A program made the position numbers and the translations under genes. From the NCBI GenBank assembly GCA_011374975.1, contig DRNU01000183.1:1-32458 (forward strand): DNA of 32,458 nucleotides. The letters are read 5' to 3'. Position 1 is the stretch's first letter, and every line of letters begins with the position of its first letter. The notes beneath the pieces were generated by a model that worked only from the letters and a program-made list of their open reading frames with translations, searched no databases and had not been told where the DNA came from. The stretch is from Gammaproteobacteria bacterium. GTDB lineage: Bacteria; Pseudomonadota; Gammaproteobacteria; DSM-19610. This document shows, in pieces, positions 11,116 to 32,377 of this stretch.

Positions 11116-11125
11116 AGTCTGCGCC

Positions 11126-11998
11126 ATGTCACCTGACCAATACTGCCAGGACAAGGCCGCCAGAAGCGGCTCCAGCTTCTATTACAGTTTCCTGTTCCTG
11201 CCCGCCGCACAGCGCCGCGCCATCACCGCGCTGTATGCCTTCTGCCGTGAAGTCGACGATGTGGTCGATGAATGCAGCGATACCGATGTCGCGCGACGCA
11301 AGCTGGACTGGTGGCGCGAGGAACTGGAACGCTGCTTTGCCGGCGAACCCCGCCACCCGGTCACACAGGCACTGCAACAACCGCTTGCAGACCACAATTT
11401 ACCCATCGAATATTTCCAGGAAATTATCGACGGCATGACGATGGACCTGGACCAGACACGTTACGAATCCTTCAACGAACTGGCCCTGTACTGTCACCGC
11501 GTGGCCGGCGTGGTAGGCCTGCTGTCGGCGGAGATCTTCGGCTACCGGCACCGTGACACGCTGAAATATGCGCAACAGCTGGGCACCGCCTTCCAGCTCA
11601 CCAATATCATAAGAGATGTCCGCGAAGATGCTGAACGCGGCCGCATCTACCTGCCGCTGGATGAACTGCTCGAATACCGCATCAACCCGCACAACCTGCT
11701 GCAGGGCAACTTGACGGATGAACTGCACGACCTGCTGGCCTTCCAGGCACAGCGTGCACGCCAGTACTACCAGCGCGCCCTGTCGCAGCTGCCGGTGCAG
11801 GACCGCTATGCACAGCGCAGTGGCGTGATCATGGCCGCCATTTACCAGACCCTGCTGGATGAGATGGAAGCCGACGGTTTTCGTGTCATGCAGCAACGTG
11901 TCCGCCTGACGCCAATACGCAAACTGTGGATTGCCTGGAAAACCGCACGCCGCGAGCGCAGACATCGGCAGCGGGGAAAAAGCTCCGCCCATGCCTGA
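11126..11998 (+). CDS. hpnD: Presqualene diphosphate synthase HpnD
   Basis: Condenses two farnesyl diphosphates to presqualene diphosphate, the first committed step to squalene. The 290-residue protein has both Asp-rich motifs, FCREVDDVVDECSD (Asp44, Asp45, Asp48) and NIIRDVREDAERGRIYLP (Asp163, Asp167), plus YCHRVAGVVGLL. The ATG at 11126 begins MSPDQYCQDKA, the usual HpnD start; the longer in-frame extension from 11081 lies in the end of hpnC and is rejected. TAAAGT overlaps the hpnC stop and ends seven nt before this ATG, without a ribosome site. The end overlaps hpnE by eight nt. Confidence 0.95.
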   Translation: MSPDQYCQDKAARSGSSFYYSFLFLPAAQRRAITALYAFCREVDDVVDECSDTDVARRKLDWWREELERCFAGEPRHPVTQALQQPLADHNLPIEYFQEIIDGMTMDLDQTRYESFNELALYCHRVAGVVGLLSAEIFGYRHRDTLKYAQQLGTAFQLTNIIRDVREDAERGRIYLPLDELLEYRINPHNLLQGNLTDELHDLLAFQAQRARQYYQRALSQLPVQDRYAQRSGVIMAAIYQTLLDEMEADGFRVMQQRVRLTPIRKLWIAWKTARRERRHRQRGKSSAHA

Positions 11999-15173: not shown

Positions 15174-15422
15174 GGTGATGTACTCCCGGGAATGACATTT
15201 TCCCGCTGCCCGAAGCCCTATGGTGTCCGAGTCGGCATGGACGTTGCAAGTTCCCGTCACGACAGAAATCCGACACCTGCCTGCGGCAAGGAAGCGGCAA
15301 TAACTTCGTCGTATTTTTGACGCTTTGCCGCCCGTGTCACCGGGCAGATTACGTATCACTCTGTTTATTATTGGTTTTGTAGATTCAGGAAGAGATGGCA
15401 TGAATATCGCATTTCTTTGTCC

Positions 15423-16367
15423 ATGCGTGTGACTGACCCGGTAACTCCTATGAACAAACCGCTACACCATATTGCGAGCACATTGAATGCAACCCCGGAT
15501 TCCGGGCAAGGTTCAGTATTGCGTGAGCAAACGGCAAGGAAGTCGCTGGAAATCACCCAGAGCCTGCAGGTGAGCCTTGACCCAACCCGGCTGATCGAGG
15601 TGTTCAGCATGGAGGTCGGCGCACTGATCGTTCACCAGGGGGTCCGCTACCGTAATGACGACCTGGAACTCGACCTTAAACTCGGCCGCCAGGCACGTCA
15701 CAGCTGCACCTATAAACTGAACATCGGTGACGAACCGCTGGGCAAGCTGACTTTCCGTCGCAACCAGAAATTTACCGAGGCGGAAATCGAGGCGCTGGAA
15801 CAACTGCTTTGCAGCCTGCTGTACCCGCTGCGCAATGCCCTGCTCTACCAGGATGCCCTGCAACTGGCACAGAAAGACCCGCTGACCGGGATCTGCAACC
15901 GTGCCGCGCTGGACGAAATGATGAGCCGGGAGCTCAGCCATGCACGCCGCCATGATTCCAGCTATGCGCTGCTGATCCTGGACATCGACCACTTCAAGCG
16001 GGTCAATGACCGTTATGGACATATTATCGGTGATTGCGCACTGAAAGCGGTCGCCGGCATGATCGGCGCCTGCAAGCGCGACGGCGACCTGCTGTTCCGC
16101 TATGGCGGTGAGGAATTCGTGGTGTTGATGCGTGACACTGACCGTGACGGCGCACACCTGCTGGCGGAACGCATCCGTACCTTCATTGAAAGCAGCCCGT
16201 GCACCTGCTCCGGTGCCGACCTGGATATCCGCGTCAGTATCGGCCTGAGCGTCCTGCAGGAAAACGACAGCCCGGTGTCACTGTTCGCGCGTGCCGACCA
16301 GGCACTCTACAACGCCAAGCGCAACGGTCGTAACCAGGTCTGTGTTGCCGAACCCTCGGAAGACTGA
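15423..16367 (+). CDS. Diguanylate cyclase with GGEEF and I-site
   Basis: Makes c-di-GMP from two GTP. From ATG 15423 the protein has 314 residues. The first 145 or so form a soluble domain I do not recognise, possibly a GAF-like sensor (IGDEPLGKLTFRRNQKFTEAE resembles a GAF end). The GGDEF domain begins at DPLTGICNRAALDE, has LDIDHFKRVNDRYGH, and the active motif GGEEF at 228-232. An RDGD inhibitory site sits exactly five residues before it, so product feedback is expected. The start is uncertain: TTG 15417 and ATG 15450 are alternatives and none has a clear ribosome site. No membrane segment is present. Confidence 0.88.
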   Translation: MRVTDPVTPMNKPLHHIASTLNATPDSGQGSVLREQTARKSLEITQSLQVSLDPTRLIEVFSMEVGALIVHQGVRYRNDDLELDLKLGRQARHSCTYKLNIGDEPLGKLTFRRNQKFTEAEIEALEQLLCSLLYPLRNALLYQDALQLAQKDPLTGICNRAALDEMMSRELSHARRHDSSYALLILDIDHFKRVNDRYGHIIGDCALKAVAGMIGACKRDGDLLFRYGGEEFVVLMRDTDRDGAHLLAERIRTFIESSPCTCSGADLDIRVSIGLSVLQENDSPVSLFARADQALYNAKRNGRNQVCVAEPSED

Positions 16368-16379
16368 CCTTTCTTATCA

Positions 16380-16417
16380 TGCGGGAGCATGCCTTCCAGT
16401 ACCGGGCTGCTCCCGCA
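16380..16417. terminator. Hairpin between convergent genes
   Basis: A 10-bp perfect stem (TGCGGGAGCA paired with TGCTCCCGCA) with an 18-nt loop, just after the diguanylate cyclase stop and just before the stop of the converging flavoprotein gene. It lacks a proper U-run on either side, so termination is inferred from position. Confidence 0.4.
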
Positions 16418-16424
16418 AAAGGTT

Positions 16425-17039
16425 TTACATCCCGTTTTTAAACTTTTCTGTCGCGGTCACACCACTGGCCCGCACCTGGCCCAGCGCCAGCGCATACTGT
16501 TGCAGGATCTTCAGCGCAAACAGGATTCGCTCCCGGAAATAGGCATCGGCTTCGGTATCGTTCCGGGCCGGGTCGTCATTCAGCACGCGCTCGACGTTGC
16601 GTACAATCACCTGCTCGGGGATATAACAAATACGATTATTCTTGTAGCTGCTCATACGCAGTTCGGCAACCGGGTAGGCACCGCCATCCGCGGATGACAC
16701 AGTCACGATCAGGGCCGGCTTGTGCGCCAGTTCGCCCTTGCCCCACATCAGGAAAAAATTCTTCAGGCCGGATGGCACCTGCCCGTGCCATTCCGGTGCA
16801 ATAACCACAAAGGCATCGCTGGATGCCAGTTCGGCGGAAACCGGCGCCAGGCGCTGCTGCCATTCACTGTCGCCTTCCCAGATGCTTTCCTCCCACAGCG
16901 GCAGCGGATTCCCTGCCAGGCTGAACAGCCAGCTGTCATCACACAGTTTCTGCTCTTCGAGGGTACGCTGGATAAAGCGTGCGACTTTCTCACTTTGCGA
17001 CGCTGTGCGGTGACTGCCGCTGATAATGCTTATTTTCAT
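16425..17039 (-). CDS. NADPH-dependent FMN reductase-like flavoprotein
   Basis: Flavodoxin-like fold protein of 204 residues in the NADPH-dependent FMN reductase family. The FMN-phosphate loop is GSHRTASQSEKVA at residues 8-20, and APEWHGQVPSGLKNFFLMWG at 81-100 corresponds to the family's PEYNGSIPGxLKN motif. The substrate (free flavin, quinone or an azo compound) cannot be decided. The ATG at 17039 begins directly at the first beta strand (KISIISGS). It lies four nt after the stop of the upstream diguanylate cyclase gene, with an AAAGG site within that gene's last codons, so the two are very likely cotranscribed. Confidence 0.87.
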   Translation of the reverse strand: MKISIISGSHRTASQSEKVARFIQRTLEEQKLCDDSWLFSLAGNPLPLWEESIWEGDSEWQQRLAPVSAELASSDAFVVIAPEWHGQVPSGLKNFFLMWGKGELAHKPALIVTVSSADGGAYPVAELRMSSYKNNRICYIPEQVIVRNVERVLNDDPARNDTEADAYFRERILFALKILQQYALALGQVRASGVTATEKFKNGM

Positions 17040-17043
17040 CGAC

Positions 17044-18069
17044 TCAGCCTTTGTAGGGCAAGACACGGTTGCGGCCCTTGAGCTTGGCCTGGTACAGCGC
17101 CTTGTCCGCCCGATCCAGTATGCTTGCAGGTGTATCTTCCGGACGTGCGCAATCGTAACCGATACTCACGCTGACCTTGCCCAGCGGCTCACCCGTATCG
17201 GTGCGTTTCAGGTTACTCTCGTCGATCTGTTCACGTATCGTTTCGGCAACACGCTGCACACCGGAGCGCGGTGAATTCTCGACAATAACCGCGAATTCAT
17301 CACCGCCGAAGCGCGCCACCAGGTCCTTGCCCTTGAAATTCTTCTTCAGTACGACGGCGATATATTGCAGTATCTTGTCGCCGATCTGGTGGCCATGCTT
17401 GTCGTTGACTTCCTTGAAGTGATCGACATCGACCATCAGCAGGCAGATGCTCTTCATCTGCAACAGCGTTTCTTCCAGCGACTCGGCCAGGCGCTCGTCG
17501 AAAGCACGCCGGTTGGAAAGACCGGTCAAGGGATCGCGCACCGCCTCCTTGCGCACCCGGTCCAGCTCCGCGCGCAACTTGTCGATTTCCGCAGCGCGTT
17601 CTTTGAGCGATCCAGCAGTGCTGCTGTTGGACTCGGACATTTTTCGCGTATCCGTCATCAAAGTACGGACCACCTTGCGGATATCGCGGATATCGTCAGC
17701 ACTTTCCAGGCGCGAAGTGCAGCTCTGCAGCAAGGCGCTGTAATTACTGAGATCCAGGCCGGAATCAATGACGATCTGGACGATATCCGCCAGCAGCCGA
17801 CACACCTCAGACTCAATCGCTTCCAGTGTTTCGACGCCCGGCGCGGCAACGTAGCGCATGAACAGCGCCCTGGCCTTTTCGGGCTCATAGGCTTCGGCAC
17901 CGCTTTCGAGCTTGTCCAGGGCTGCAACCAGGTCTTCGGAACGACCCAGCTGGTACTCATACCAGAGTGCATAATTGAGCGGATTCATGGGAATCTGCAG
18001 GCGCGTCATCAAGGGGAAAACCAGACGTGCTATCTCCTGGGTCTGGTCATAATCCTGCTGATAGTCCAT
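17044..18069 (-). CDS. Diguanylate cyclase with GGDEF, degenerate I-site
   Basis: Soluble 341-residue c-di-GMP synthase candidate. Residues 1-145 are helical and contain no membrane segment. A coiled coil (about 152-175) leads into the GGDEF domain at DPLTGLSNRRAFDERL, with MVDVDHFKEVNDKHGHQIGD and the active motif GGDEF at 255-259. The position of the inhibitory RxxD reads KGKD, so feedback control by c-di-GMP may be lost, unlike the cyclase encoded 700 nt away on the other strand. It lies 78 nt downstream of a thioredoxin gene and directly upstream of a flavoprotein gene, a redox setting that might supply the signal (inference). Confidence 0.9.
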   Translation of the reverse strand: MDYQQDYDQTQEIARLVFPLMTRLQIPMNPLNYALWYEYQLGRSEDLVAALDKLESGAEAYEPEKARALFMRYVAAPGVETLEAIESEVCRLLADIVQIVIDSGLDLSNYSALLQSCTSRLESADDIRDIRKVVRTLMTDTRKMSESNSSTAGSLKERAAEIDKLRAELDRVRKEAVRDPLTGLSNRRAFDERLAESLEETLLQMKSICLLMVDVDHFKEVNDKHGHQIGDKILQYIAVVLKKNFKGKDLVARFGGDEFAVIVENSPRSGVQRVAETIREQIDESNLKRTDTGEPLGKVSVSIGYDCARPEDTPASILDRADKALYQAKLKGRNRVLPYKG

Positions 18070-18972: not shown

Positions 18973-20013
18973 TTGATTCCCGGGAGAGCATTAATTGCTA
19001 TTAAAACAACAAGTTATATAGACACCACCAACGCCTTGCCAGGGATCGGCCAGATTCACCCCGCGCGACACCCCAGGCCGGCTTCCGGCCCCGGACGCCT
19101 TGTTCTGCTGAAACTGCTGCTGGTGATCAGCGCCATCTCCTACTGCGCAGCGGCTGCCGAGCGTGCGAATATTGCGATCCTGTTCCCACAAGTCGCGAGC
19201 ACGCATGCCAGAATATACGAAGAAATCATGCACGGGGTGTCCGAACACGCACTGACCAACACCAGCACCTTTGCCGTCACCGCAGAGACCCGGCCACAGG
19301 ACATCTCTGCCTGGCTGAATAAAACAGCCGCGCAGGCCATCCTGGTACTGGGTCAGCGCAGTTTCCGGCTGGTGCAGGAACTGGATACCGACATGCCCAT
19401 GGTGGTCGGTGCCGTGGTGGCACCCGCTGACAGTTACCCGACCCTGAGCCTGAGCGGTGATCCGGACATGTTTTTCAGCCATCTCAAAAGTCTGGCACCG
19501 CGCGTTAAACGGGTCTTTATTGTTTACAGCGAGGCCAGCAGCGGCTGGCTGGTCCGACTGGCTGAAATCTCCGCCCGCAAACACGGGCTGGAACTGGTCG
19601 CACGACCGGCCGAGACCATTCGCGAGGCGGTGCTGCACTATCGCAGCGTGCTGGAAACGGCACACAGTGACAGTGACGCAATCTGGCTCCCCATGGACCG
19701 GGTTGCGCCGGACAAAACCATTCTGCCGATGGCACTGGATGCGGCCTGGAAACGTCGCCTGGTCGTATTCTGCAGTAACCCCCTATATGTAAAAAGAGGG
19801 GCGCTGTTTGCGCTCTACCCCGATCACCGCAAGATGGGAAGCACGTTGGCGGACATGGCACTGGAGCAAATAGGCAATATTACCCTCGACGGAGCAAGGC
19901 CGACCCGCACGCTGAAACTGGCGGTCAACCAGCGCACCGCATCGCACCTCGGCCTGCATTACCCGCCGGACCAGGAACGTACTTTTGATCTTGTCTATCC
20001 AGGCCCACGCTAG
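18973..20013 (+). CDS. Periplasmic substrate-binding protein (ABC_sub_bind-like)
   Basis: Resembles the ABC transporter substrate-binding family of TrpX type (PF04392-like): a signal segment, then ANIAILFPQVASTHARIYEEI and VKRVFIVYSE, a two-lobe alpha/beta pattern, ending LKLAVNQRTASHLGLHYP, typical of the family's last segment. No permease or ATPase gene is nearby. Instead a membrane histidine kinase follows after nine nt, suggesting a sensory accessory protein like TorT or LuxP. The start is uncertain: the frame opens at TTG 18973 (346 residues), but the signal helix is only at residues 43-62, so TTG 19036 or an unusual codon after GGGAGAG (18982-18988) may be the true start. Confidence 0.75.
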   Translation: MIPGRALIAIKTTSYIDTTNALPGIGQIHPARHPRPASGPGRLVLLKLLLVISAISYCAAAAERANIAILFPQVASTHARIYEEIMHGVSEHALTNTSTFAVTAETRPQDISAWLNKTAAQAILVLGQRSFRLVQELDTDMPMVVGAVVAPADSYPTLSLSGDPDMFFSHLKSLAPRVKRVFIVYSEASSGWLVRLAEISARKHGLELVARPAETIREAVLHYRSVLETAHSDSDAIWLPMDRVAPDKTILPMALDAAWKRRLVVFCSNPLYVKRGALFALYPDHRKMGSTLADMALEQIGNITLDGARPTRTLKLAVNQRTASHLGLHYPPDQERTFDLVYPGPR

Positions 20014-20022
20014 TCAGCTGAC

Positions 20023-21615
20023 ATGAAATCAACTGCCCCGTTATCGCTCACCAGAACCAGCTTCCACCGGCAGCTGCTGCTGATATTTTCTGTCGGCATC
20101 ATCTTTCTTGCGCTGGTGGCATCCATCACAACCGCCTGGATTACCAGTCAGCAGGTACGCACCCTGCTGGTTACCGAGGGCCTGCAGGTTACCGAAAACC
20201 TGGCCGAGCAGAGTGTACTGGCACTGCTCTATGACAGTGGCGACAATGCCCTCGATGCAGCCCGCACGACACTGTCCTTCCCGGCCATACAGCGCGTGAC
20301 GATTTACAATGCCAGGCACCAGCCGATACTGGCCCAGCAAAAATCGCAAACGCCGGGACTGGATATGGAACGGCTGCAATGGGTACAGGACGGAGCTGCA
20401 CTGATCGAGGAAACACCACAGGCCTGGCATTTCATGGCCCCGGTCTACGTGGAGGCCGATCCCCTGCCCGCCGCACCCAGGACCGGTCGCGAACTGCTCG
20501 GCCATGTCTACGTGATCATGCACAAGGATACACTGCACGAGATCCAGACCAGCACCTTTATCAACAATATCGCCATCGCCGTATTTATTGCAGCCATTCT
20601 TTTGCTGTTACTCAATATGAGTCTTACCCGGCTCACCGACCCCCTGCATACCCTGTCGCGACTGATGGAACAGGCACGACAGGGTGAAACAGAGGTATAT
20701 GCCAGGGTGCACGGGCCGCAGGAAGTCACCCAGATCGCGGCCGCCTTCAACACCATGATGGAAAGCCTTGCCGAACGCGACAGGCGCCTGCGCGAGCACA
20801 ACCTGCAACTGGAAAGCGAAGTCTCACTGCGCACCCGCGAACTGGTACAGGCACGCGACGCGGCACTGGCGGCCAGCCGCCACAAGTCGGAGTTCCTGGC
20901 CAATATCAGCCACGAGCTGCGCACTCCCCTGCAATCCATCATCGGTTACACCGACGTACTTATTGAAAGCATGGAAGACGAGGGCCAGGACACCTACCTC
21001 GCAGACCTGGAACGGGTGCTGCACAATGCCCGTCACCTGTTATCACTGATCGACGGTACACTGGCACTGGCCAAGATCGAGGCCGGACGCATGGACCTGA
21101 ATATACAGGATGTCAGCCTGGAGGCGGTCCTGGCACAGGCGGAAGAGACCATCAAACCGCTGATGAAGGCCAACAACAATCACCTGGAAACACAACTGGA
21201 CAGCAACGGCGAAATGTTGCGGATCGATGCCGGAAAACTGCTGCAGATTTTACTCAACCTGCTCAGCAATGCCGCCAAGTTCACACATGACGGCAAGGTC
21301 ATCATGCGTGTCAGACACAGCAGCCGGATGCTTGCCATTGACATCGAAGACACCGGCATCGGTATCAGTATGGAACAGCAGACAATCATCTTTGACCCGT
21401 TCAGGCAGGGCGATGGCAGTGTCACACGCAATTTCCAGGGTACCGGCCTCGGGCTGTCGATCACACATCGTTTTTGCCAGCTGATGGGCGGAGACATCAG
21501 GGTGATCAGCACACCGGGACAGGGCGCCACCTTTACAGTGACCATCCCGCTACCTGTTTCTGCGGAAGGCCTGGCCGGCAACCGGAAAGCCGGTGATACC
21601 ACGATTGCACTCTGA
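20023..21615 (+). CDS. Membrane sensor histidine kinase
   Basis: A 530-residue class I histidine kinase. Transmembrane helices are at about 17-40 and 181-199, bracketing a periplasmic domain of about 140 residues that resembles CHASE8-type sensors (LALLYDSGDNALDAART…RVTIYNARHQPIL). A HAMP region (about 200-252) and coiled coil lead to the phosphoacceptor His297 in FLANISHELRTPLQS. The ATPase domain has the N box LLNLLSNAAKFT, DTGIGI and GTGLGLSI. It carries no receiver domain. It lies between the binding-protein gene and a hybrid kinase gene with almost no spacers, so the three form one operon, and the hybrid's receivers are the obvious phosphotransfer partners. Confidence 0.93.
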   Translation: MKSTAPLSLTRTSFHRQLLLIFSVGIIFLALVASITTAWITSQQVRTLLVTEGLQVTENLAEQSVLALLYDSGDNALDAARTTLSFPAIQRVTIYNARHQPILAQQKSQTPGLDMERLQWVQDGAALIEETPQAWHFMAPVYVEADPLPAAPRTGRELLGHVYVIMHKDTLHEIQTSTFINNIAIAVFIAAILLLLLNMSLTRLTDPLHTLSRLMEQARQGETEVYARVHGPQEVTQIAAAFNTMMESLAERDRRLREHNLQLESEVSLRTRELVQARDAALAASRHKSEFLANISHELRTPLQSIIGYTDVLIESMEDEGQDTYLADLERVLHNARHLLSLIDGTLALAKIEAGRMDLNIQDVSLEAVLAQAEETIKPLMKANNNHLETQLDSNGEMLRIDAGKLLQILLNLLSNAAKFTHDGKVIMRVRHSSRMLAIDIEDTGIGISMEQQTIIFDPFRQGDGSVTRNFQGTGLGLSITHRFCQLMGGDIRVISTPGQGATFTVTIPLPVSAEGLAGNRKAGDTTIAL

Positions 21616-21616
21616 C

Positions 21617-23962
21617 ATGATGCCCATAACCGAAACACATATCCTGATAGCCAATACCGACCCCGGCGCCCGTGAACAGATACGTCAGTGCCTGGAGGCT
21701 GACGGCTTCAGCAGAGTATCGGAAGCCGCAACCGGCCTGGCGGCAGTCGAAATACTCGGCAAGCATCGCATCGATATTCTGGTCACTGACATTCCGCTGG
21801 GCCCGCTCGACGGCTGGCGCCTGGCGCGCCTGGTACGTTCCGGCGTGCTGGAAAGCCCTGCAGACACACCGATACTCATCGTATCCTCGACCTGCAGTGA
21901 GCGCATTGCCGAGGTTACCGCACGGGAATTCGAGGTTAACCGCTTCATTTCCTTCTCCGCACTGCAACAACTGCCTCTGGAGATACGCGGCATACTGGCC
22001 GGCAACAGGACCCCGGCCCGCCCCACCTTGCTGGCTATCGAGGATCACGCCGACACCACCCGCCTGATCGAGCGCATCCTGAGCCGTCGTTTCGACATCG
22101 AGACGGCCGCTGACGGTGAAGCCGGTCTCGAGGCCTGGCGGGCCCGCCGGCACGACCTGGTACTGCTGGACATCATGCTGCCGAAGCTGTCAGGCGAGCA
22201 GGTGCTGACCTCTATCATAGACAGCAACCCGCACCAGGCTGTGGTCATCATGACCGCTCACAGTTCTGCCGAACGCGCCGCCGCCCTGCTGCTGGACGGC
22301 GCAGTGGATTTCATTGCCAAACCGTTCCGCAGCGAGCAACTGCGCCGTGTATGCGAAATCGCGGTGCGGCGCGAAGACTTCATGGTCAGCAATGCGCAGT
22401 TTTCCCAGCGGCTTGCCGAGTTACACCAGAGTGAAGACCGCTACCGGCGCCTGATCGAGGCGTTCAGTGAAAACCACTTTTTCTATACCTGCAACCGTGA
22501 TGGTGACTATACCTGGCTCAGCCCGTCGCTCGAACATGTGCTCGGCCACACGCATGAGATGTTTATGCTGCACCATGAGGAATACCTGACCGATCACCCC
22601 GTAAACCAGGCTGCCTTGCGACAGCGCCGCATCACCCTCTCCGGCACCCAGCAGCCGCCCTGCGAAATGGAAATCCGCCACAGTACCGGCAGTATTGTCA
22701 GGCTGGAAATCACCGAAATCCCGATCCGTGACAATCTCGGGCAGATCATCGCCCTGGAAGGTATCGCCCACGATATCACCGAGCGCATCCAGATACAGAG
22801 ACAGCTGCGCCAGGCGCAGAAAATGGAAGCTATCGGCCAGCTCACCGGCGGCATCGCACACGATTTCAACAACATTCTTGGCAGTATCCTGGGCTATACC
22901 GGGCTGGCCCAGCAGAAATTTGCGGCGGACGGCGAAGGCAAGCTGGCGGAGTACCTGTCCGAAGTGTACCGGGCCGGAGAGCGGGCACGTGATCTCATTG
23001 CCCAGTTGCTTGCTTTCAGCCGGGGAGGCAGCGCCACACCCCGGGTAATGATGCTGGCGCCCCTGGTCAAGGAAAGCGTCAAGATGATGCGCGTGACCAT
23101 GCCAAGCAGTATCGCGCTGGTCACCGAGGTGGAAGACGACACTGCAGCGGTACTGATGGATGCGGTACAACTGCAACAGCTCATCATGAACCTTTGCATC
23201 AATGCCCGTGATGCCATCGAAGGCAGTAAAGGCTACATCGCTATCCGGCTCCGGTCCGCACACGACATAAAGGCAAACTGCAGTTCCTGCCACTTGCCGC
23301 TAAACGGGGATTTCGTGGAACTGGCCGCCGAGGATAATGGCGAGGGCATCAGCGAAGATATTCTCACCCGGATCTTCGACCCGTTCTTCACCACCAAGGC
23401 AATCGGCAAGGGCACCGGTATGGGTTTGTCGATGGTGCACGGTATCGTGCACGGTCATGGCGGCCATATCCTGGTCGACAGCAAACCCGGCAAGGGTACG
23501 GTTTTCCGCCTGCTGTTCCCGGTACACCGGGGAGCCGAAAACGTGTCGGTCACGCCCGACCTGGCAGACAAGCCGGTTAGCGGCAGTGGCCGGATCATGG
23601 TGGTGGATGACGACCCCGCGTTGACGCACTACCTGGAAGAACTGTTGCAGGAGCGCGGCTACCGGGTCACGGCACTCACCGACTCCCGCGAGGCGCTACA
23701 GCACTTTGAGCAGGACCCGCATGCCATCGACCTGTTGTTGACCGACCAGACCATGCCGGGACTGGCCGGGATCCGGCTGGCACAGGCCATGCTGGCACGG
23801 CGCCCCGATCTGCCGGTAATCCTGTGCACCGGCTACAGCGACAAGGTCGATGCCGGGAAAGCCCATGCCATGAACATCAGCGGCTACTTCACCAAACCCG
23901 TCGACCCGGTCAGGCTGACGCGCCTGATGCACACACTGCTGACGCAGGATACCGGCAACTGA
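21617..23962 (+). CDS. Soluble hybrid histidine kinase, REC-REC-PAS-HisKA-HATPase-REC
   Basis: A 781-residue cytoplasmic phosphorelay protein. Receiver 1 (about 7-125) keeps Asp58 in LVTDIPLG but lacks the conserved lysine (RFISFS where a K-P motif is expected). Receiver 2 (137-250) is canonical, with Asp185 and Lys235. A PAS domain (about 275-390) leads to a HisKA domain of the GGIAHDFNN type, with His415. The ATPase domain has NARDA, DNGEGI and GTGMGLSM, plus an insert with CSSCH at 555-559. Receiver 3 (659-775) has Asp710 and Lys760. The ATG at 21617 lies one nt after the preceding stop; ATG 21620 is possible. It converges with the citrate-synthase-like operon. Confidence 0.92.
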
Positions 23963-23968
23963 CCCCCA

Positions 23969-24001
23969 CGCCCCGCTTTTTTCAGGGCAGGTTGCGGGGC
24001 G
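23969..24001. terminator. Hairpin at the convergent gene ends
   Basis: An 8-bp GC stem (CGCCCCGC with GCGGGGCG) and a 17-nt loop span the gap between the hybrid-kinase stop and the converging citrate-synthase-like stop. A T-run lies in the loop, not after the stem, so the terminator role is only suggested by position. Confidence 0.35.
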
Positions 24002-24809
24002 GCTTGCCCCGGTACTCGATATCGTCGCAGCGCAGTGGCAGGAAGGTATCCGCCGGCTTGTCGCGCGCATCGATATAGCAGGCGACCACACCGCTGGTTA
24101 CACACAGCGCACATAACCGGTATATCTGTTCGGCGCTGAAGCCCTGGTCGGAGAGAAACGCCGAGACATAGCCGCCGATATTCATGCTCTCGTCGTATTC
24201 GCGCTGCAGGATATCCTCGATGGCGTAGGCCAGGTGCATGTGCCTGCCGAGCGGAAACTCCAGTTGAGCGGTAACCGCTTCCAGCGCCGCAATGCGCTCG
24301 TCGCCACTGGCCAGGGGCCGTGCATAGCCCATGATCCTGACCTTGCCGCGAGAGCGCCGCAATTCACGCGCGACGATCTCCCCGGCCGTCATGCCCGCCT
24401 CTACATCGGCCAGCGATTCCCGGATAAACCGCACCCCCTCCAGCAGGGTACGCGCGCCGTACATCGTGGAATCCGCAGCCAGCGCACCAGCCGCAGCTGC
24501 GGCTGTTACGGAACTGCGCGCCGTTCCGGCCAGTGCACCGACCTGGTTGCACCAGATCCGCGGGTCCGGCCAGCTCAGGCAGATGAACGCGGCTTCCAGC
24601 CAGTCGGCGAGGCGGCGCTCCGGTAACCGGCCAAGCACGTTCAGCATCATCACCTGGAAATAGGAGTGTTTACCCACCAGTTCGTCCAGCATCGAATAGC
24701 CGTGGCAGAACACCCCCTTGCCGGCCAGCCAACCACCTTTGCCGCTGTGGATAGTGTCGCGTTGTTTATCCCACAGCCGGGTATCAGTGCTAGCGGTCTT
24801 CGATGACAT
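23982..24809 (-). CDS. Citrate-synthase-fold protein, paralogue 2
   Basis: A 275-residue protein resembling short citrate synthase / citryl-CoA lyase proteins: GKGVFCHGYSMLDELVG at 31-47, WPDPRIWCNQVGALAGT at 80-96, IMGYARPLASGDERIAAL at 159-176 and MNIGGYVSAFLSDQGF at 209-224. By motif alignment the three catalytic positions of citrate synthase appear replaced: Tyr117 where a His precedes GG/GA, Arg164 where GFGH has His, and Gly where N-V-D has Asp. It is thus probably not a normal citrate synthase. It overlaps its upstream paralogue by 20 nt. The ATG at 24809 is preferred; 24818 is possible. Upstream in-frame sequence lies inside the paralogue and is excluded. Confidence 0.75.
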   Translation of the reverse strand: MSSKTASTDTRLWDKQRDTIHSGKGGWLAGKGVFCHGYSMLDELVGKHSYFQVMMLNVLGRLPERRLADWLEAAFICLSWPDPRIWCNQVGALAGTARSSVTAAAAAGALAADSTMYGARTLLEGVRFIRESLADVEAGMTAGEIVARELRRSRGKVRIMGYARPLASGDERIAALEAVTAQLEFPLGRHMHLAYAIEDILQREYDESMNIGGYVSAFLSDQGFSAEQIYRLCALCVTSGVVACYIDARDKPADTFLPLRCDDIEYRGKPPRNLP

Positions 24810-25608
24810 AGTGCGCATCATCCACATGGGGCATGGCGGTAATCGGCTTGTTGGCCTGCTCCAGACCGTGCGCCAGCAGGCCGGGGGCAGCAAGTAACTG
24901 GAACAGGCCGGCACCGTCGCGGGGTCGAAAACCGAGATCAACCAACACTGCAGCAGCCACACCGGCGTTCAACCAGCCTGAGCGGTGGTCAGCGAGCGCC
25001 TGCGCAAAACGGCAACCCCAGCGCAATCCGGGACCACTCCCGGGCAACGCCAGCAGCTGGTCTGCAATGCGCTGAGCCATGCTATCGATATCGCCAAAGC
25101 GGGCACCAAAACCCGGCGGGGCGCATTGCCCATTGCCACCCTGATCGACAGATTCCTGCTGTAAAAGGTCTGCGGCAACCTGTGCGGGATCGCTGTTGAG
25201 ATGCCCGCGCAGGAAACGCATCGCCGCTTCCACATCGCCGGCACCGGCATGGCCGCCTCCCATGACGGTCAGGGCAATGGGCAGAATATGCACCGGGTCG
25301 GTCTTGCCAATACCGGCATTCATGGCTGCACGGGTAGCAGGATGGCGCGGCCCCGGGTTGATCATGCCGATCATCAGTGCTTTCAGCAGCGCGGCCTGGT
25401 CCTCCGTGGGCAGTTCACCGCGGAACAACAGGTATAACACATCGACATAGCTGCGCTCCGCCATCAGGTCCAGCAGGTCGTAGCCATGACAGCGACAGCT
25501 TGTGGCAACATAGGGGTTATGGTCAGCGGGCTGCTCTTCCCAGATACGGGTCATGGTGCGTTCAGCAAAGTTTTCCTTACGCCGTTTGACCGGGGCACGT
25601 TTCTGCAT
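24790..25608 (-). CDS. Citrate-synthase-fold protein, paralogue 1
   Basis: A 272-residue relative of the downstream gene product. Shared landmarks are RIWEEQPADHNPY at 21-33, CHGYDLLDLMAERSYVDVLY at 40-59, and INPGPRHPATRAAMNAGIGK at 83-102. It keeps a histidine in GGGHAGAGD (His120), which could match the first catalytic His of citrate synthase. The GFGH motif reads GFGAR (167-171), and the N-V-D-G motif reads LNAG, so the second His and the Asp appear lost. The start codon overlaps the TonB receptor stop by one base (TGATG), so translation is coupled. It may pair with paralogue 2 as a heteromer, each supplying different surfaces (inference). Confidence 0.75.
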   Translation of the reverse strand: MQKRAPVKRRKENFAERTMTRIWEEQPADHNPYVATSCRCHGYDLLDLMAERSYVDVLYLLFRGELPTEDQAALLKALMIGMINPGPRHPATRAAMNAGIGKTDPVHILPIALTVMGGGHAGAGDVEAAMRFLRGHLNSDPAQVAADLLQQESVDQGGNGQCAPPGFGARFGDIDSMAQRIADQLLALPGSGPGLRWGCRFAQALADHRSGWLNAGVAAAVLVDLGFRPRDGAGLFQLLAAPGLLAHGLEQANKPITAMPHVDDAHYVIEDR

Positions 25609-27782
25609 CAGTAGCCGTCCCCTGTTGCATAACGCAGTTCGGCATAGACGCTGCGCCTGGCACGCGGGTAATCATCGGGGATGGCAGCGGGGCTCGGCTC
25701 GCGCACGTCCACATCAAACAGGTTACGCACGGAACCGGCAAGCTGCCAGTGTCGGCCGATGCGCTTGCGGCGCAGCGTCAGATTGACCAGTGTATAGTCG
25801 TCGATATCCTTGCGCGTGTCCCCGGCCGCGCGCTTGCGACCTTTCACAGTGTTCAGCCCGACATCCAGCAACCAGTCGGGCTGGAAATGCCAGCGCGCAT
25901 CAAAAAAGAACTGCTGTTCGGGTGCGTCGGCAATACGGTCACCGGTATCCCGATCTTCCGAATTCTGGTAAGCATAGTTGGCATTCAGCTGTATACCCGG
26001 CACAGGCTGCCACTGCGCCTCCAGTTCAAAACCGTGACCTTCCTGGTCTCTCGAGTTGCGTGCCGTATTGCCGGTTGCCGGTGCGGCGTCAGGAACAAAC
26101 TCGATAAGATCGTCTATCTCATAGTAGAACAGGCTGAGGCCCGTCCGGATATTGAAGCCGGGGCGATAATCGAAAGCCAGTTCCACGGTATCTATCGTCT
26201 CCGGATCAAGATCCGGGTTACCCTGGATAACCGGGTTATTGATAGAGAACTCCTCGCCAAACGACGGTGCACGGAAAGCCCGGCCGTACATGAATTTGGT
26301 CGTGAGGTTACGCGCTGTCGCCCACACCAGTGCCAGGCGCGGGTTAACGGTGCTGCCGAAGTCCGAGTAATGGTCATAGCGTACACCCGCAGTCAGCTCC
26401 CAGTCGCTGGCGAGTGCCCACTCATCCTGCACAGACAGGAACCAGACCTTACGGCTCTCGTCTTCCATGAAGATATAGGGCGTGCCGCTGACATCCGTCA
26501 GTGTGCCATCGATGGGTGATATGCTGCCGTCGATCACACCCGGACCGAAGTTCTTGCTTTCATCGGGACGCGCCTGCTGGTACTTGTAGCCTGCCGAGAA
26601 ACGCATGTTGTGCCGTTGCAGGCCTTTGTAGAGGGCCGTGGTTTCCATTGCATAGGTGGTTTCGGTACCACCCGGCCGGCCGAGCAAGCCGTCCGGAAAA
26701 GATACAATACCGGCCGGATTCATGAAGTTGACATTGCCATCGGAACCGATGGGCAACACCGTCCCGGCCGGGAACAGGTTGAAACGCGCATCTTCATCGA
26801 GGTACGTGTAATTCAGTCGCAGGCCGAGATCCCAGTCCCGCACCAGCTCTGTATTGCGGTAACGCAGGTCCAGCAGGTACTGGCTGACATCCTGCCCGCC
26901 ACCGGGGTCCAGTGCCTGGGCTGCGCCCGGGCCGAGTCCGGCATCGTCCTGGATCCAGGCCCAGGCACCAAGGTTCCAGTTACCGCGTGCAATATCCAGC
27001 CGCGTATTCAGGATATCGTAACGGGTATCCAGCGCAGCAGGGGCGCGTGATGCGCTGGTGCCGAAATTGTTATCCAGAGTGGTTTGCAGGTCGCTGCCCA
27101 CCTTGTTACTGCGGTCGCCATCGCTGCGCATGTATTCCATGTTAAAGGCGACATCCCAGCCAGCCAGTTCGCTGCCATATTGCAACCAGGCATCACGGCT
27201 GTCGAAAGAACCGGTGCGCAGACCGAGTCGGGTACCACCGATCTCCCCCGCTTTCTTCGGGATGATATTGATCACGCCGGCAAAGGCATCCGCACCATAG
27301 ACCGCCGAGCCGGGGCCGCGGATCACCTCCACGCGCGATATACCGGCTACCGGCAGGCGCAGTGTGGGCGCGCGGCCGCCGGTAAACAGCTCAGTCATGG
27401 GCACACCGTCCATTAACATCAACACCTGCGGGTTCTGACCGGTGTGGATGCCGCGAATGGAAAATATGTCGTTCAAACGATTGGATGAGCTGGACACGTG
27501 CAGGCCGGGCACACTCTCCAGCGCCTCGCCCAGCACGGTGGCGCCCATGGCCTCGATATCCTCTGCGGTGATGACACTGGCAACCGAGGGTGCAAGATGT
27601 ACCGGTTTTCTGGAACCGGTAGCTATGCTGACACTTTCCTCATCACCATAGAGCAGCATCAAGTCTTCTTCCGGGGCGCTACCCTCGCGCGCAGCGGCCA
27701 GTGCTGACATCAATAACAGAAGAAACCCCGTCAACCTGGTGATGGCGTTGATACTCCCGGAGCTGTTACTGCACCAGCACAA
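25608..27782 (-). CDS. TonB-dependent outer-membrane receptor
   Basis: Outer-membrane beta-barrel transporter of about 724 residues. A signal peptide (LTGFLLLLMSALAAA) is followed by a plug domain: SVASVITAEDIEAMGATVLG, then GLHVSSSSNRLNDIFSIRG, VLMLMDGVPM and VEVIRGPGSAVYGADAFAGV. A 22-strand-type barrel makes up the rest, ending RYATGDGY. The plug resembles the BtuB/CirA/catecholate-siderophore group; the substrate is unknown. The start is uncertain: TTG 27782 lies six nt after the upstream stop, and no ATG precedes the signal peptide. It sits between the ThDP-enzyme gene and the citrate-synthase-like pair, which may mean the receptor imports a substrate for those proteins. Confidence 0.93.
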   Translation of the reverse strand: MCWCSNSSGSINAITRLTGFLLLLMSALAAAREGSAPEEDLMLLYGDEESVSIATGSRKPVHLAPSVASVITAEDIEAMGATVLGEALESVPGLHVSSSSNRLNDIFSIRGIHTGQNPQVLMLMDGVPMTELFTGGRAPTLRLPVAGISRVEVIRGPGSAVYGADAFAGVINIIPKKAGEIGGTRLGLRTGSFDSRDAWLQYGSELAGWDVAFNMEYMRSDGDRSNKVGSDLQTTLDNNFGTSASRAPAALDTRYDILNTRLDIARGNWNLGAWAWIQDDAGLGPGAAQALDPGGGQDVSQYLLDLRYRNTELVRDWDLGLRLNYTYLDEDARFNLFPAGTVLPIGSDGNVNFMNPAGIVSFPDGLLGRPGGTETTYAMETTALYKGLQRHNMRFSAGYKYQQARPDESKNFGPGVIDGSISPIDGTLTDVSGTPYIFMEDESRKVWFLSVQDEWALASDWELTAGVRYDHYSDFGSTVNPRLALVWATARNLTTKFMYGRAFRAPSFGEEFSINNPVIQGNPDLDPETIDTVELAFDYRPGFNIRTGLSLFYYEIDDLIEFVPDAAPATGNTARNSRDQEGHGFELEAQWQPVPGIQLNANYAYQNSEDRDTGDRIADAPEQQFFFDARWHFQPDWLLDVGLNTVKGRKRAAGDTRKDIDDYTLVNLTLRRKRIGRHWQLAGSVRNLFDVDVREPSPAAIPDDYPRARRSVYAELRYATGDGY

Positions 27783-27788
27783 ACGGGA

Positions 27789-29693
27789 TCAGGCCTGCCC
27801 GTCCGCCGCTTCGTCAAGCACTTTCATCCTGGCCTGCATGGGCGGCACTTCTTCAGGATCGATATAGACATCGAGCAGTGTCGGCACACGTGCATTGCAA
27901 ATGGCATCGATATCCAGCGCCGCAAAGTCTTCAGGCGCGCGGATAGTCCAGGCCTGGGCTCCCATGGCGCGCGCCACGGCCGCAAAGTCCACCGGCGGCA
28001 ACTCGAAGCCAACAGGTTCAGCGCCACCAAGGCGCTGGCCGTGCTTGACCATGCCCAGCGCCTGATCATTCAGGATAATAAAAACCACCGGCAGTTGCTG
28101 TTGCACCGCAACCGTCAATTCCTGGCCGCTCATCAGGAAACTGCCGTCACCGGTAATGCATACCACCGGCACACTGCGGTTCCCCAGTGCGGTACCGAGA
28201 GCTGCGCCGATGGCCCAGCTCATGGCGCCAAAACCCATACCGATGCGAAAACACCCGCTGCTCTTCGGATGCAGGTAGTGCGTACTCCACGCCCAGCAGT
28301 TTCCGGCATCTGACAGGAAGCGGGTTTGCTCGGGAAAGCGCCGGCCGAGATCAAACATCAGACGCTGCGGTTTCAGCGGAATATCATTCGACAGGCATTT
28401 GTCCGCCTCGTTCAGCGCCACCTTGCGCGGGGTACCGAATGTCATGCGTTTGTTGGAAACCGTCCAGCCGGAGAGCGCCTGCAACGTCGCCTTGCGTGCG
28501 CGTGAATACTGGCCACCGCTGAAACAGCTCTGTTGCTGGTGGTCGACGCTGGTGAACACCTGTACCAGGTCTGAAAAAATTACGCGCAGGTGACCGTAAA
28601 TATGCAGCTGTGCCATCGGTGAGTGCACAAAATTATCCAGCGTGGCATCGATGTGAATGAGCTTTTTGTTAAGCAGTGCGGCTTCATCCCAGCCGTTGGT
28701 GGACAACTCGTCCAGACTGGTGCCTACCACCAGCACCAGCTCCACCTCATCGTCGAGCAGGGTGTCGCGCGCGCTGGAGTGGCCGGCAAAGCCGAATACG
28801 CCGCGGTACAGGTGATGATAGGGGTTCATGCCGCCCTTGCCTGCCGGTGTGGTAACAATAGCGGCGCCAATCAACTCGGCAAACTGTACGATGTTTTCAA
28901 TACAACCACGGCAGTCATTGCCCAGCACCAGCACGATCCGGCGTGCCTTTACCAGCACCTGGCAAAGTGCATCGAAGCTGTGAGTATCCGCCACTTCGGG
29001 CTGGCGGAACAGGGTCGCGATATCAAAAGCACCCGACCCCGCCGCTACCGGTGCACGCTGAACATCCATAGGGATACTGATATGCGCTGGTCCGGCAGGC
29101 TTCTGACAGGCCGACACCATCGCCTTGATCAGTTTTCTTTCCAGCTGCTGTGGATGCGACACCAGGCTGCTGTAACGGGTGCAGTGGGCAAACATGCCGA
29201 CAGTATCGACCGCGTCGCCGGACGATTCCTGCAGTGCCCCGCTGCCAAACCCCGGCAAGGCGGTCTGCGCAGTAATCACCAGCAGCGGAGTGTGATCGGC
29301 ATAGGCCGAGGCAACCCCTGTAATCAGGTTAGTGGTACCCGGGCCGGTAGTTGCACAACAGACGCCGAGCTTGCCTGTCTCGCGCGCATAACCATCGGCC
29401 ATGAAAGCAGCGCCGGACTCGTGGCGCGCCACGATCACCTGTAAACCGGGCGCATTGCGCCGGGTCTTGCGCGACAGCAGGCGGGGTGATGCCAGCGGTG
29501 CCCTGCGCCCCGGGTCATTGCGCGCCTTGCGTGCCAGTGCATTGAAAAAGGGCTCAATGGCGCCACCGGGGACACCGAATATATACTCCACACCGATCTG
29601 TTCCAGGTAGTCCACAATCAGATCGGCACAGGTGCGCTCCGAATCACCGGCGGCATCGGTTACGGGATCAAATTCCTGTAAGTTCGAAGCCAT
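27789..29693 (-). CDS. Acetolactate-synthase-like ThDP-dependent enzyme
   Basis: A 634-residue member of the ThDP-dependent carboligase/decarboxylase superfamily. The N-terminal pyrimidine-binding domain has GVPGGAIEPFFNAL at 40-53 and the catalytic glutamate Glu92 in RHESGAAFMADGYAR. The middle domain has an Rossmann-like GAAIVTTPAGKGG. The C-terminal domain has the diphosphate motif GDG (515-517) ending at Asn542. Between the first motif and Glu92 is a basic insert of some 20-25 residues (RKARNDPGRRAPLASP region) not seen in standard acetolactate synthases. No IlvH-type small subunit is nearby, so biosynthetic acetolactate synthase is unlikely; another 2-oxoacid decarboxylase or carboligase is more likely. 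The ATG is one nt after the regulator stop. Confidence 0.88.
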   Translation of the reverse strand: MASNLQEFDPVTDAAGDSERTCADLIVDYLEQIGVEYIFGVPGGAIEPFFNALARKARNDPGRRAPLASPRLLSRKTRRNAPGLQVIVARHESGAAFMADGYARETGKLGVCCATTGPGTTNLITGVASAYADHTPLLVITAQTALPGFGSGALQESSGDAVDTVGMFAHCTRYSSLVSHPQQLERKLIKAMVSACQKPAGPAHISIPMDVQRAPVAAGSGAFDIATLFRQPEVADTHSFDALCQVLVKARRIVLVLGNDCRGCIENIVQFAELIGAAIVTTPAGKGGMNPYHHLYRGVFGFAGHSSARDTLLDDEVELVLVVGTSLDELSTNGWDEAALLNKKLIHIDATLDNFVHSPMAQLHIYGHLRVIFSDLVQVFTSVDHQQQSCFSGGQYSRARKATLQALSGWTVSNKRMTFGTPRKVALNEADKCLSNDIPLKPQRLMFDLGRRFPEQTRFLSDAGNCWAWSTHYLHPKSSGCFRIGMGFGAMSWAIGAALGTALGNRSVPVVCITGDGSFLMSGQELTVAVQQQLPVVFIILNDQALGMVKHGQRLGGAEPVGFELPPVDFAAVARAMGAQAWTIRAPEDFAALDIDAICNARVPTLLDVYIDPEEVPPMQARMKVLDEAADGQA

Positions 29694-29694
29694 C

Positions 29695-30303
29695 TCAGAC
29701 CACCGCCACCGCTCGAGGAAGCCCGATAGCTTCAAGTAATTTGTCATCCGGCACCGGTTTGGCCAGGCACACCTCGGCGCCGGCAGCAAGGATACGCTGC
29801 ACATTCTCCGGCGTGTAATAGCCGGTCATTGCAATAATGCGTACTGCCTGTGTAGAGGGGTCCTGCTGCATGCGCTGGCAGACCTCAAAACCGTCAAGAC
29901 CCGGCATCATGAGATCGAGCAACAGGATATGGGGCTGGAAGGTCTGCACCTTGATCCCGGCATCGAAGCCATTGTGGGACACTTCGGTACTGATTTCCGT
30001 CGCCTGGCTGTCGAGCAGCTCCACCAGGTAACCGGCCAGCTGCCGGTCGTCATCGACGATCAGGATGCGCAGGGCATCGCCCTCGGGTGGCTGTAGACTG
30101 ATTCCACGCTCGCGCGCAAAGCGCTCGACATCGTGACGCAGGAAGCGCCGGTGTCCGCCTGGGGTGGTCAGAGCGTGCAGGCCGCCTTTCTGCGCCCACT
30201 GCCGTACCGTAACCGGCGACACCATCAGCAGCCGGGCAACATCATTGGGCGTCAGCCAGGATTTCTCTTTTTTTCCGCTACTTATGGCCGCCATCCCGTA
30301 CAT
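29695..30303 (-). CDS. Response regulator: excisionase/MerR-type HTH fused to REC
   Basis: A 202-residue regulator with unusual order. The DNA-binding domain is first: WLTPNDVARLLMVSPVTVRQWAQKG (16-40) and TTPGGHRRFLRHDVERFAR (46-64), a helix-turn-helix of the excisionase/MerR group including the GGHRRF wing. A receiver domain follows (79-195) with acidic Asp84-86, phosphoacceptor Asp130 in LLLDLMMPG, Thr160 and Lys182 in AKPV. It leads the five-gene operon and is probably its regulator. The start may be ATG 30303 or ATG 30294; an AGGGG site fits the second better. The cognate kinase is not certain; the kinases encoded at 20,023-23,962 are the nearest candidates. Confidence 0.9.
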   Translation of the reverse strand: MYGMAAISSGKKEKSWLTPNDVARLLMVSPVTVRQWAQKGGLHALTTPGGHRRFLRHDVERFARERGISLQPPEGDALRILIVDDDRQLAGYLVELLDSQATEISTEVSHNGFDAGIKVQTFQPHILLLDLMMPGLDGFEVCQRMQQDPSTQAVRIIAMTGYYTPENVQRILAAGAEVCLAKPVPDDKLLEAIGLPRAVAVV

Positions 30304-31242: not shown

Positions 31243-32199
31243 CTACGAAGCCGTTTCACAATTGCCGTCATCGATCACCGCACTGCCCCCAAACTGCTCC
31301 TTTAACTGTTTGATCAGCGGACAGGGCATACCCTTTACCCCCTTCAGACTGACACGTTTCAGCTCACCAAAATTCAGCATAATCCCGATACTGTCCAGCG
31401 GGTTTTCATCAAGGGTAATGCGCGCCAGGTCCGTTAACCCGCCCAGCGGCTCAAGCGAGCTGACCTGGTTGTACGACAGATCAAGCTCGATCAGCTCGGA
31501 CAGTTGCCCCAGGGCCTCGATATCGGCAATCCGGTTGCCGGCAAGGTACAGGTTTTCAAGTTTTGCCAGTGTCTCCAGTCCGTCCAGGCTGGCCAGCCGG
31601 TTGTCACTCAGGTCCAGTTCCCTCAAGTCGGCCAGGGTCCCGAGCGGATGAATGTCGGAAATGGTGTTATGACTCAGGTCCAGCACCTGCAGTGAATGTG
31701 CATCACCGAGCAATGAGATATCTGTCAGCCCGTTATGTGCAAGCGACAGAAACCTGAGAGCGGGAAACTGCCCGACCCAGGCAACATTCCGGATCCGGTT
31801 ATGATCGAGGTTCAGGTGGGTGACCGACAGGTAAGCAGCACCTTCCGGTATATCACTGACCCGGTTATAACCAAGATCGAGTCGCGCCAGCCTCTTGAGT
31901 CCGTCGACCGGGCGGGTATCTGCAATGGCATTGTGCGCCAGGTCGAGTTCCTTGAGATTGACCAGGTGTTCGATACCGGACAGGTCAGTGATCTGCCTGC
32001 CTTGTGCATTGACACATTGCAGGTGATCGACGTGACCGGCATCGGTCCAGCCGTTTTTCCGGGCTGTCTCGCGCACACAGGCTTTCAGTGCTGCGTCCGC
32101 AAAAGACAACTCATCGATAGCGGTATAGACGTTGGAGGATTCGCTGCAGCCGCCCAGCAGCAACGCCGTCAGGGTCAGGACAAATGTGATAGCGCGCAT
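31243..32199 (-). CDS. Leucine-rich-repeat lipoprotein
   Basis: A 318-residue lipoprotein. The signal peptide MRAITFVLTLTALLLGGC has its lipobox cysteine at residue 18, so the mature protein should be lipid-anchored and periplasmic or surface-exposed. A short region with Cys41 and Cys62 precedes about nine leucine-rich repeats of 22 residues (about 79-290) of the form LxxLxxLDLSxNxIxDIxPLGx, as in SDS22-like and internalin repeats. The tail contains Cys293 and Cys314. Such repeats normally bind proteins; the partner is unknown. ATG 32199 is chosen because it starts the signal peptide, over GTG 32217. The neighbouring DUF202 gene is divergent. Confidence 0.88.
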   Translation of the reverse strand: MRAITFVLTLTALLLGGCSESSNVYTAIDELSFADAALKACVRETARKNGWTDAGHVDHLQCVNAQGRQITDLSGIEHLVNLKELDLAHNAIADTRPVDGLKRLARLDLGYNRVSDIPEGAAYLSVTHLNLDHNRIRNVAWVGQFPALRFLSLAHNGLTDISLLGDAHSLQVLDLSHNTISDIHPLGTLADLRELDLSDNRLASLDGLETLAKLENLYLAGNRIADIEALGQLSELIELDLSYNQVSSLEPLGGLTDLARITLDENPLDSIGIMLNFGELKRVSLKGVKGMPCPLIKQLKEQFGGSAVIDDGNCETAS

Positions 32200-32377
32200 A
32201 TCGAAATCTTCACACACATTAACGGCAGATACAGGTCAGGGTGCTCATATTAGCCTGAACCGGCCTCGAGCGCAGCATCCGGACCGGTGACATTGTTGAC
32301 AGCCGCCTTCAGTCTGATTTGTTTTATACTGCAGGCAAGTAAACCTGTGATGTCTATTCCTCCCGGACTGAAAACAA

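Follow-up and report, generated by a model that had tools for sequence, protein, structure and literature searches.

An eight-gene unit that links a ThDP-dependent enzyme and a citryl-CoA-lyase-like protein pair with a TonB-dependent receptor and sensor kinases: a possible system for making and sensing a small molecule

Why should one bacterial operon encode a regulator, a thiamine diphosphate (ThDP)-dependent enzyme, a TonB-dependent outer-membrane receptor and two proteins resembling citrate synthase? The question is raised by contig DRNU01000183.1 of a gammaproteobacterial assembly (GCA_011374975.1; 3.3 Mb in 249 contigs, 88.8% complete), whose 32,458 nucleotides are referred to here as the window. 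An earlier note, made from the letters of this contig, had described the five genes as co-expressed, and had proposed ligand import followed by decarboxylation or acyl-CoA-related condensation or, alternatively, production and uptake of a citrate-like metallophore. We find that this five-gene operon is half of a larger eight-gene unit (18973-30303), since three convergent genes at 18973-23962, which the earlier note overlooked, are part of the same conserved unit. Tentatively, and at somewhat less than an even chance, we read the eight genes as one system that makes a small molecule with a ThDP synthase and senses it through a reception relay. The genes of the unit are:

29695..30303, minus strand: DNA-binding response regulator (Pfam Response_reg 2.7e-22, HTH_17 1e-13)
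27789..29693, minus strand: ThDP-dependent enzyme of the acetohydroxyacid synthase (AHAS) superfamily (three TPP_enzyme domains, Pfam)
25608..27782, minus strand: TonB-dependent outer-membrane receptor (TBDR), plug and barrel (Pfam barrel 8.5e-52, Plug 1e-24)
24790..25608, minus strand: CS1, with a predicted citryl-CoA-lyase fold (AlphaFold model and PDB match)
23982..24809, minus strand: CS2, with a predicted citryl-CoA-lyase fold (AlphaFold model and PDB match)
18973..20013, plus strand: periplasmic substrate-binding protein (SBP) of family PF04392 (Pfam ABC_sub_bind 1e-12)
20023..21615, plus strand: membrane sensor histidine kinase (HK) (Pfam HAMP, HisKA, HATPase; sCache_4 below cut-off)
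21593..23962, plus strand: hybrid kinase/response regulator (Pfam: three receivers, PAS, HisKA, HATPase)

The list of open reading frames (ORFs) places the regulator, ThDP enzyme, receptor, CS1 and CS2 genes in a row on the minus strand at 23982-30303, and their junctions (1 nt, 6 nt, a 1-nt overlap within TGATG, and a 20-nt overlap) are as the earlier note gave them. The ThDP gene starts at an ATG at 29693, with an in-frame alternative further upstream at 29804; the receptor gene starts with TTG, and CS2 has a longer alternative start at 24962. Sequences resembling promoters or terminators were no more frequent here than chance allows, and none lay upstream of the first gene; the claim of co-transcription therefore rests on gene spacing and conservation. 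The identities proposed for the regulator, receptor and ThDP enzyme are clear; the CS pair is recognised weakly, as citryl-CoA-lyase-like, and CS2 has no Pfam match. The genome's own AHAS (contig C93, TIGR00118 895.7 bits) and two citrate synthases are located elsewhere, so that the operon genes are not the housekeeping copies.

We searched genomes of the same class (n=369) for the enzyme components. A CS2 profile matched 49 of them at E<=1e-6; after five weak, citryl-CoA-lyase-like matches were left out (G091, G157, G268, G356 and G365), and with broken or short matches retained in the counts (G034, G052 and G064), 44 genomes held CS2 proper. The ThDP clade, at a threshold of E<=1e-120, was present in 48. 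Both were found in 41 genomes, ThDP alone in seven, CS2 alone in three (G034, G052 and G128) and neither in 318, an association with a Fisher p of 1.7e-43 when shared ancestry is ignored. In a sample of the phylum, an identical set of 10 out of 398 genomes held ThDP and CS2 (weak CS2 matches in G573 and G621 left out), and CS2 was present in 15/95 genomes of a sample of relatives, broken and short copies counted. The ThDP enzyme and CS2 thus tend to occur in the same genomes, in most cases accompanied by CS1 and the TBDR and often by the SBP/kinase pair. The unit recurs in other families and classes, and the survey proposed in the earlier note, for which separate occurrence of the genes in relatives would have counted against a unit, came out mostly in its favour.

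Gene linkage was examined in 49 loci: regions of up to 20 kb around 45 module matches (41 from the class, four from the relatives sample), the window itself, and L003-L005 from the first relatives. The criterion for choosing these loci was a complete or partial CS pair, and many are cut by contig ends. CS2 is present in 48, CS1 in 45 (and fused in one more, L065), the TBDR in 40, ThDP in 39, the SBP in 31, and some kind of histidine or hybrid kinase in 37. Among the 31 loci that span 18 kb or more, one of them the window, the corresponding counts are 30 for CS1, 28 for the TBDR, 27 for a kinase, 26 for ThDP and 23 for the SBP. All eight genes are found in the window's order in a member of the same genus (L089); in each of L003, L004 and L005, ThDP, CS1 and CS2 are grouped with a related receptor gene, joined in L003 by the SBP and kinase. 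In another class, all four loci (L110-L113) carry TBDR, CS1, CS2, ThDP, SBP and hybrid kinase genes on one strand, and in G056 the region first taken (L064) stops just short of the TBDR, SBP and kinase, which are seen in L141. The outgroup regions (L093-L097, L114 and L115, G268 not included) have one CS-like gene and no ThDP, TBDR or SBP match. Two loci also showed peculiarities of their own: in G136, the ThDP and CS1 genes flank a gene for a short-chain dehydrogenase (L142:9071-12493), and L088 (G034) is a degraded module in which TBDR, CS2 and ThDP are each in pieces.

What kind of enzyme is encoded? A conserved Glu and a GDG...N cofactor motif are hallmarks of the ThDP superfamily. The corresponding residues (E92, G515-G517 and N542) are invariant across 40 aligned ThDP rows, and by these motifs the window protein belongs to the superfamily, with its cofactor residues intact. 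An AHAS isozyme was considered and rejected, the AHAS large-subunit model TIGR00118 scoring 288.9 bits against a cut-off of 538.35. The closest solved structures in a PDB search were BbmA (E 5e-116) and CsmA (4e-104), ahead of AHAS (3e-77), and an NCBIfam ScyA-related model matched below its cut-off. In a quick tree, whose deepest branches are unsure because L136 and two of the outgroup rows are long, the module enzymes form a clade separate from the genome's AHAS. The enzymes of a second class (L106-L109) nest among gammaproteobacterial ones near that of the window, suggesting transfer for these loci; those of L110-L113 fall outside the gammaproteobacterial enzymes. The window protein also has an insert of about 25 residues (29440-29540) ahead of the catalytic-type Glu, which is absent from L003-L005 and similar in L137.

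These relatives bear on a further explanation, in which the unit makes a specialised metabolite (an antibiotic, pigment or protective compound) and the sensor gives the producer feedback, with no signalling between cells. The names BbmA and CsmA are in the style of natural-product genes, which is a reading of the names only, and the ScyA-related match points the same way, but neither a recurring exporter nor a larger biosynthetic cluster was found among the neighbour-ORF families (small or diverged ORFs would be missed), and we regard this explanation as unlikely.

The CS proteins, which usually accompany this enzyme, were compared through AlphaFold models. The top PDB match of both is 6hxp (Foldseek), at TMq 0.70 for CS1 (mean pLDDT 91.1) and 0.74 for CS2 (mean pLDDT 84.1), and on these models both have the citrate synthase / citryl-CoA lyase fold. 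The citryl-CoA lyase models PRK06224 (NCBIfam) matched far below their cut-offs: CS1 scored at best 88.7 bits where 212 are required, and CS2 at best 65.5 where 245 are required. Catalytic roles of His and Asp residues are established in the citrate synthase literature, and we set the catalytic columns on L094, a relative that has all the motifs; the degraded copy L088 enters the alignment as fragments in rows of their own, and the second-His column is loosely aligned. The first His is replaced in all 46 CS1 rows (by P in 41, A in 3, L in 1 and S in 1), and neither the third His nor the Asp is found in any of them; the second-His column retains a His in 12/46, the window's copy included. Among the 49 CS2 rows, the first position is P in 48 (gap in 1), the second His and the Asp are absent from all, and the third His is R in 48 (gap in 1). 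In five outgroup proteins, the first and third His are present in all, and the second His and the Asp are each missing in four. Replacement of the first and third His and the Asp in both families makes ordinary citrate chemistry unlikely. We rejected ordinary citrate or citryl-CoA chemistry by the pair; ordinary acyl-CoA condensation, along the lines of the earlier note, is likewise unsupported, most of the expected catalytic residues being replaced.

Could the pair still be an active enzyme, carrying out other acyl-CoA chemistry on a substrate that the ThDP enzyme supplies or takes? Such a role would be compatible with a synthesis system. Thirteen positions are invariant over 47 CS2 rows, among them P81, W86, N88, R164, D170, E171, R172, N210 and C244; these conserved residues include the Arg that replaces the catalytic His and a retained neighbouring Arg, which 48/49 CS2 rows share and all CS1 rows lack. 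The His retained in the window's CS1 and a fusion of CS1 with the ThDP enzyme (L065) would also fit. No evident base or acid substitutes for the lost residues, however, and the CS1 pocket residues differ from row to row, so that activity of this kind appears somewhat doubtful.

The fusion bears as well on how the proteins may work together. L065:6976-9636 encodes ThDP and CS1 as a single 886-aa protein, and divergence of CS1 mirrors that of CS2 across loci (r 0.91; 946 pairs, 44 loci). From these two observations we infer that CS1 and CS2 probably form a heteromer in contact with the ThDP enzyme.

The receptor and its company suggest what the outer-membrane step may serve. That a ligand is imported across the outer membrane, as the earlier note supposed, is plausible, but the frequent position of the TBDR beside the SBP and sensor kinases points to sensing. 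A FecA-type transducing receptor was rejected: Pfam, at E up to 0.01, found the plug and barrel of the window's receptor and no N-terminal STN signalling domain. The TBDR subfamily is present in 39/274 class genomes. We collected neighbourhoods for six of the seven genomes that hold the receptor without ThDP or CS2, together with a second TBDR copy of some genomes; in these regions, a TBDR lies beside YfiR or hybrid kinases in L126, L128, L127, L129 and L131, and not in L130 or L132. A TonB receptor, with similarity to siderophore receptor models (NCBIfam) below their cut-off, would also fit production and uptake of a citrate-like metallophore, but the Pfam matches of the 25 window proteins include no NRPS (nonribosomal peptide synthetase) or NIS (NRPS-independent siderophore) synthetase and no siderophore exporter. 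No Fur-like site was found near the operon either, one match with three mismatches at 17021 being at chance level, and most CS catalytic residues are replaced; we consider the metallophore very improbable.

On the sensor side, the HK gene adjoins the SBP gene in many relatives. A search for PF04392 at E<=1e-8 gave 0-4 matches in each of 28 chosen genomes (several module SBPs escape the model at this setting), so the SBP is unlikely to lie near the module by chance. The regulator has an N-terminal MerR-like helix-turn-helix (HTH_17) followed by a receiver domain; its gene also adjoins the module in L089 and L090, and the family clusters in only 7/49 loci. Relatives of the hybrid kinase in L003, L072 and L076 have receiver, GGDEF and EAL domains. 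Other members have other sensors: L049 has YfiR (DUF4154) and a CHASE8-GGDEF-EAL protein, and L108, of the second class, has a Ser/Thr kinase-AAA-GAF-histidine kinase with a LuxR-type regulator (Pfam was run for L108; the ORFs of L106, L107 and L109 begin alike).

The partner of the ThDP enzyme varies as well. The seven class genomes with ThDP only are G132, G033, G075, G203, G205, G204 and G206. G132 (L135) has the order HK-SBP-TBDR-methyltransferase-ThDP, and G033 (L136) has HK-SBP-TBDR, a FabH-like protein, a 131-aa protein (L136:5665-6060; no Pfam or NCBIfam match) and ThDP; a CS1 profile search found no CS1 in either genome. The FabH-like protein has an apparent Cys-His-Asn triad, as read from its sequence. 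The ThDP gene of G075 (L138) and that of G203 (L139) adjoin genes for a histidine kinase and a FIST protein on the opposite strand. The region from G205, of the window's genus (L137), follows the window as far as 18697 and matches it again from 27823; the SBP, HK, hybrid kinase, CS2, CS1 and TBDR genes are absent as one block, and the retained ThDP enzyme has altered residues, read by eye, in a GGAIEP motif that is invariant in 40 rows. ThDP in G204 (L140) has no module partner within the 19 kb seen, and in G206 (L145) it is at a contig end.

These variants bear on the main rival to a system of synthesis and reception, namely that a compound from the environment enters through the TBDR, is detected in the periplasm by the SBP and kinases, and is degraded or transformed by ThDP, CS1 and CS2 in the cytoplasm. 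The clustering of receptor, SBP, kinase and enzyme genes would be expected here too, and the PDB relatives of the enzyme within the AHAS superfamily include benzaldehyde lyase and 2-hydroxyacyl-CoA lyase. However, clustering of neighbouring ORFs found no non-module family that recurs in eight or more of the 49 loci (it would overlook ORFs of <100 aa and strongly diverged families), and the sole transporter-like family among the neighbour clusters listed was an ABC ATPase in four loci, for which reason synthesis is favoured over degradation. In addition, the L106-L109 enzymes have no TBDR or SBP nearby, and partners such as a ketosynthase-like protein or a methyltransferase suggest biosynthesis. 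A recurring ThDP enzyme with differing partners, a receptor, an SBP and differing sensors fits synthesis and perception better than degradation, and we consider detection and processing of an environmental compound doubtful.

The reading of the eight genes as a system for making and sensing a small molecule draws on the linkage and co-occurrence of the genes, the one ThDP-CS1 fusion, the replaced CS residues, the intact ThDP residues and the variants in partner and sensor. Under this reading, the ThDP enzyme and a CS1/CS2 heteromer would form a complex in the cytoplasm and make the putative molecule by ThDP carboligation, the product being perhaps acyloin-like or 2-hydroxyketone-like; the CS pair would act not as a citryl-CoA lyase but as a non-citrate, acyl- or carboxylate-binding partner. 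Whether it stems from the cell itself or from kin, the molecule would then cross the outer membrane through the TonB receptor and be captured in the periplasm by the PF04392 protein; the membrane and hybrid kinases would read the ligand and drive the HTH-receiver regulator, with output in some relatives possibly through cyclic di-GMP (c-di-GMP) enzymes. Complex formation in the window, the class of product, the identity of ligand and product, and the direction of signalling are all steps that we infer.

Several observations weigh against this reading. Solo ThDP genes exist (L137-L139), and a whole ThDP gene is not near CS2 in 10/49 loci; eight of these ten genomes hold ThDP elsewhere (G071, G201, G346, G307, G197, G179, G193 and G136), and of the other two, the local ThDP of G034 is broken and G128 has none above threshold. 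In G136, some 0.5 Mb separates CS2 from ThDP and CS1; CS1 and CS2 are on different contigs in G197, and the CS1 profile search found no CS1 in G179. Nearby SBP is lacking in 18/49 loci and nearby TBDR in 9/49, some of them at contig ends, and both are missing from 4/8 non-gammaproteobacterial loci. ThDP divergence tracks that of CS1 and CS2 weakly (r 0.37 and 0.44) and that of the SBP more closely (0.71). The window's CS1 still has one expected catalytic His, and despite this the case against citrate chemistry rests on the remaining replaced positions. Nor is the receptor confined to genomes with the enzymes: seven of its 39 genomes (G032, G117, G177, G213, G218, G232 and G249) lack ThDP and CS2 at the thresholds used, and TonB receptors usually import large or scarce ligands, unlike a simple acyloin.

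Known systems offer partial likenesses. LuxS-LuxP-LuxQ and CqsA-CqsS also combine a synthesis enzyme with a membrane kinase feeding a phosphorelay, and LuxPQ has a periplasmic binding protein; by contrast, the window has a ThDP enzyme and a CS-like pair as the putative synthase, plus a TonB receptor. Judged by linkage alone, enzyme and receptor genes go together here as in autoinducer-type systems. The L049 pair resembles periplasmic control of c-di-GMP of the YfiR-YfiN type, but Pfam shows such a pair in that one member, and others have SBP-HK or Ser/Thr-kinase-HK sensors. The CS proteins share fold and length with Hydrogenobacter citryl-CoA lyase (6hxp) and match the PRK06224 profiles weakly, whereas the window encodes two diverged paralogues together, with the first and third His and the Asp replaced. 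AHAS and enzymes of the ScyA, BbmA and CsmA types have the same three ThDP domains and intact ThDP-binding and Glu residues; the module enzyme differs in its usual partner, the CS-like pair.

More speculatively, and with less confidence than we place in the eight-gene system itself, the units may represent a new family of chemical communication, in which ThDP enzymes with exchangeable partners (CS heteromer, FabH-like protein or methyltransferase) would yield diversified signals, received through TonB, SBP, kinase and c-di-GMP components and spread by transfer across Proteobacteria. If so, this would be a new route to bacterial signals; the citrate-lyase fold would have been turned to another use as a heteromer, TonB receptors would gain a role in perceiving a self-made compound, and a different partner enzyme should mean a different molecule. 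ThDP and CS2 occur together in 41/369 class genomes, yet in the open-licence literature, searched for the gene set, for a ThDP or acyloin signal and for the nearest ThDP enzymes, we found no account of the set, in agreement with the earlier note. Tundrenone was dropped as a lead, since passages of PMC7589939 concern another system.

Other features of the window were noted in passing. Next to the module, an FMN reductase gene is flanked by genes for two GGDEF proteins (15417-18069), syntenic with L137 up to the module edge. Two squalene/phytoene-synthase-like proteins and an amine oxidase are encoded in tandem at 10222-13322, an arrangement also seen in hopanoid clusters. Finally, a leucine-rich-repeat protein with a lipoprotein-signal-like N-terminus is encoded at 31243-32217, with matches to internalin models far below their cut-offs.

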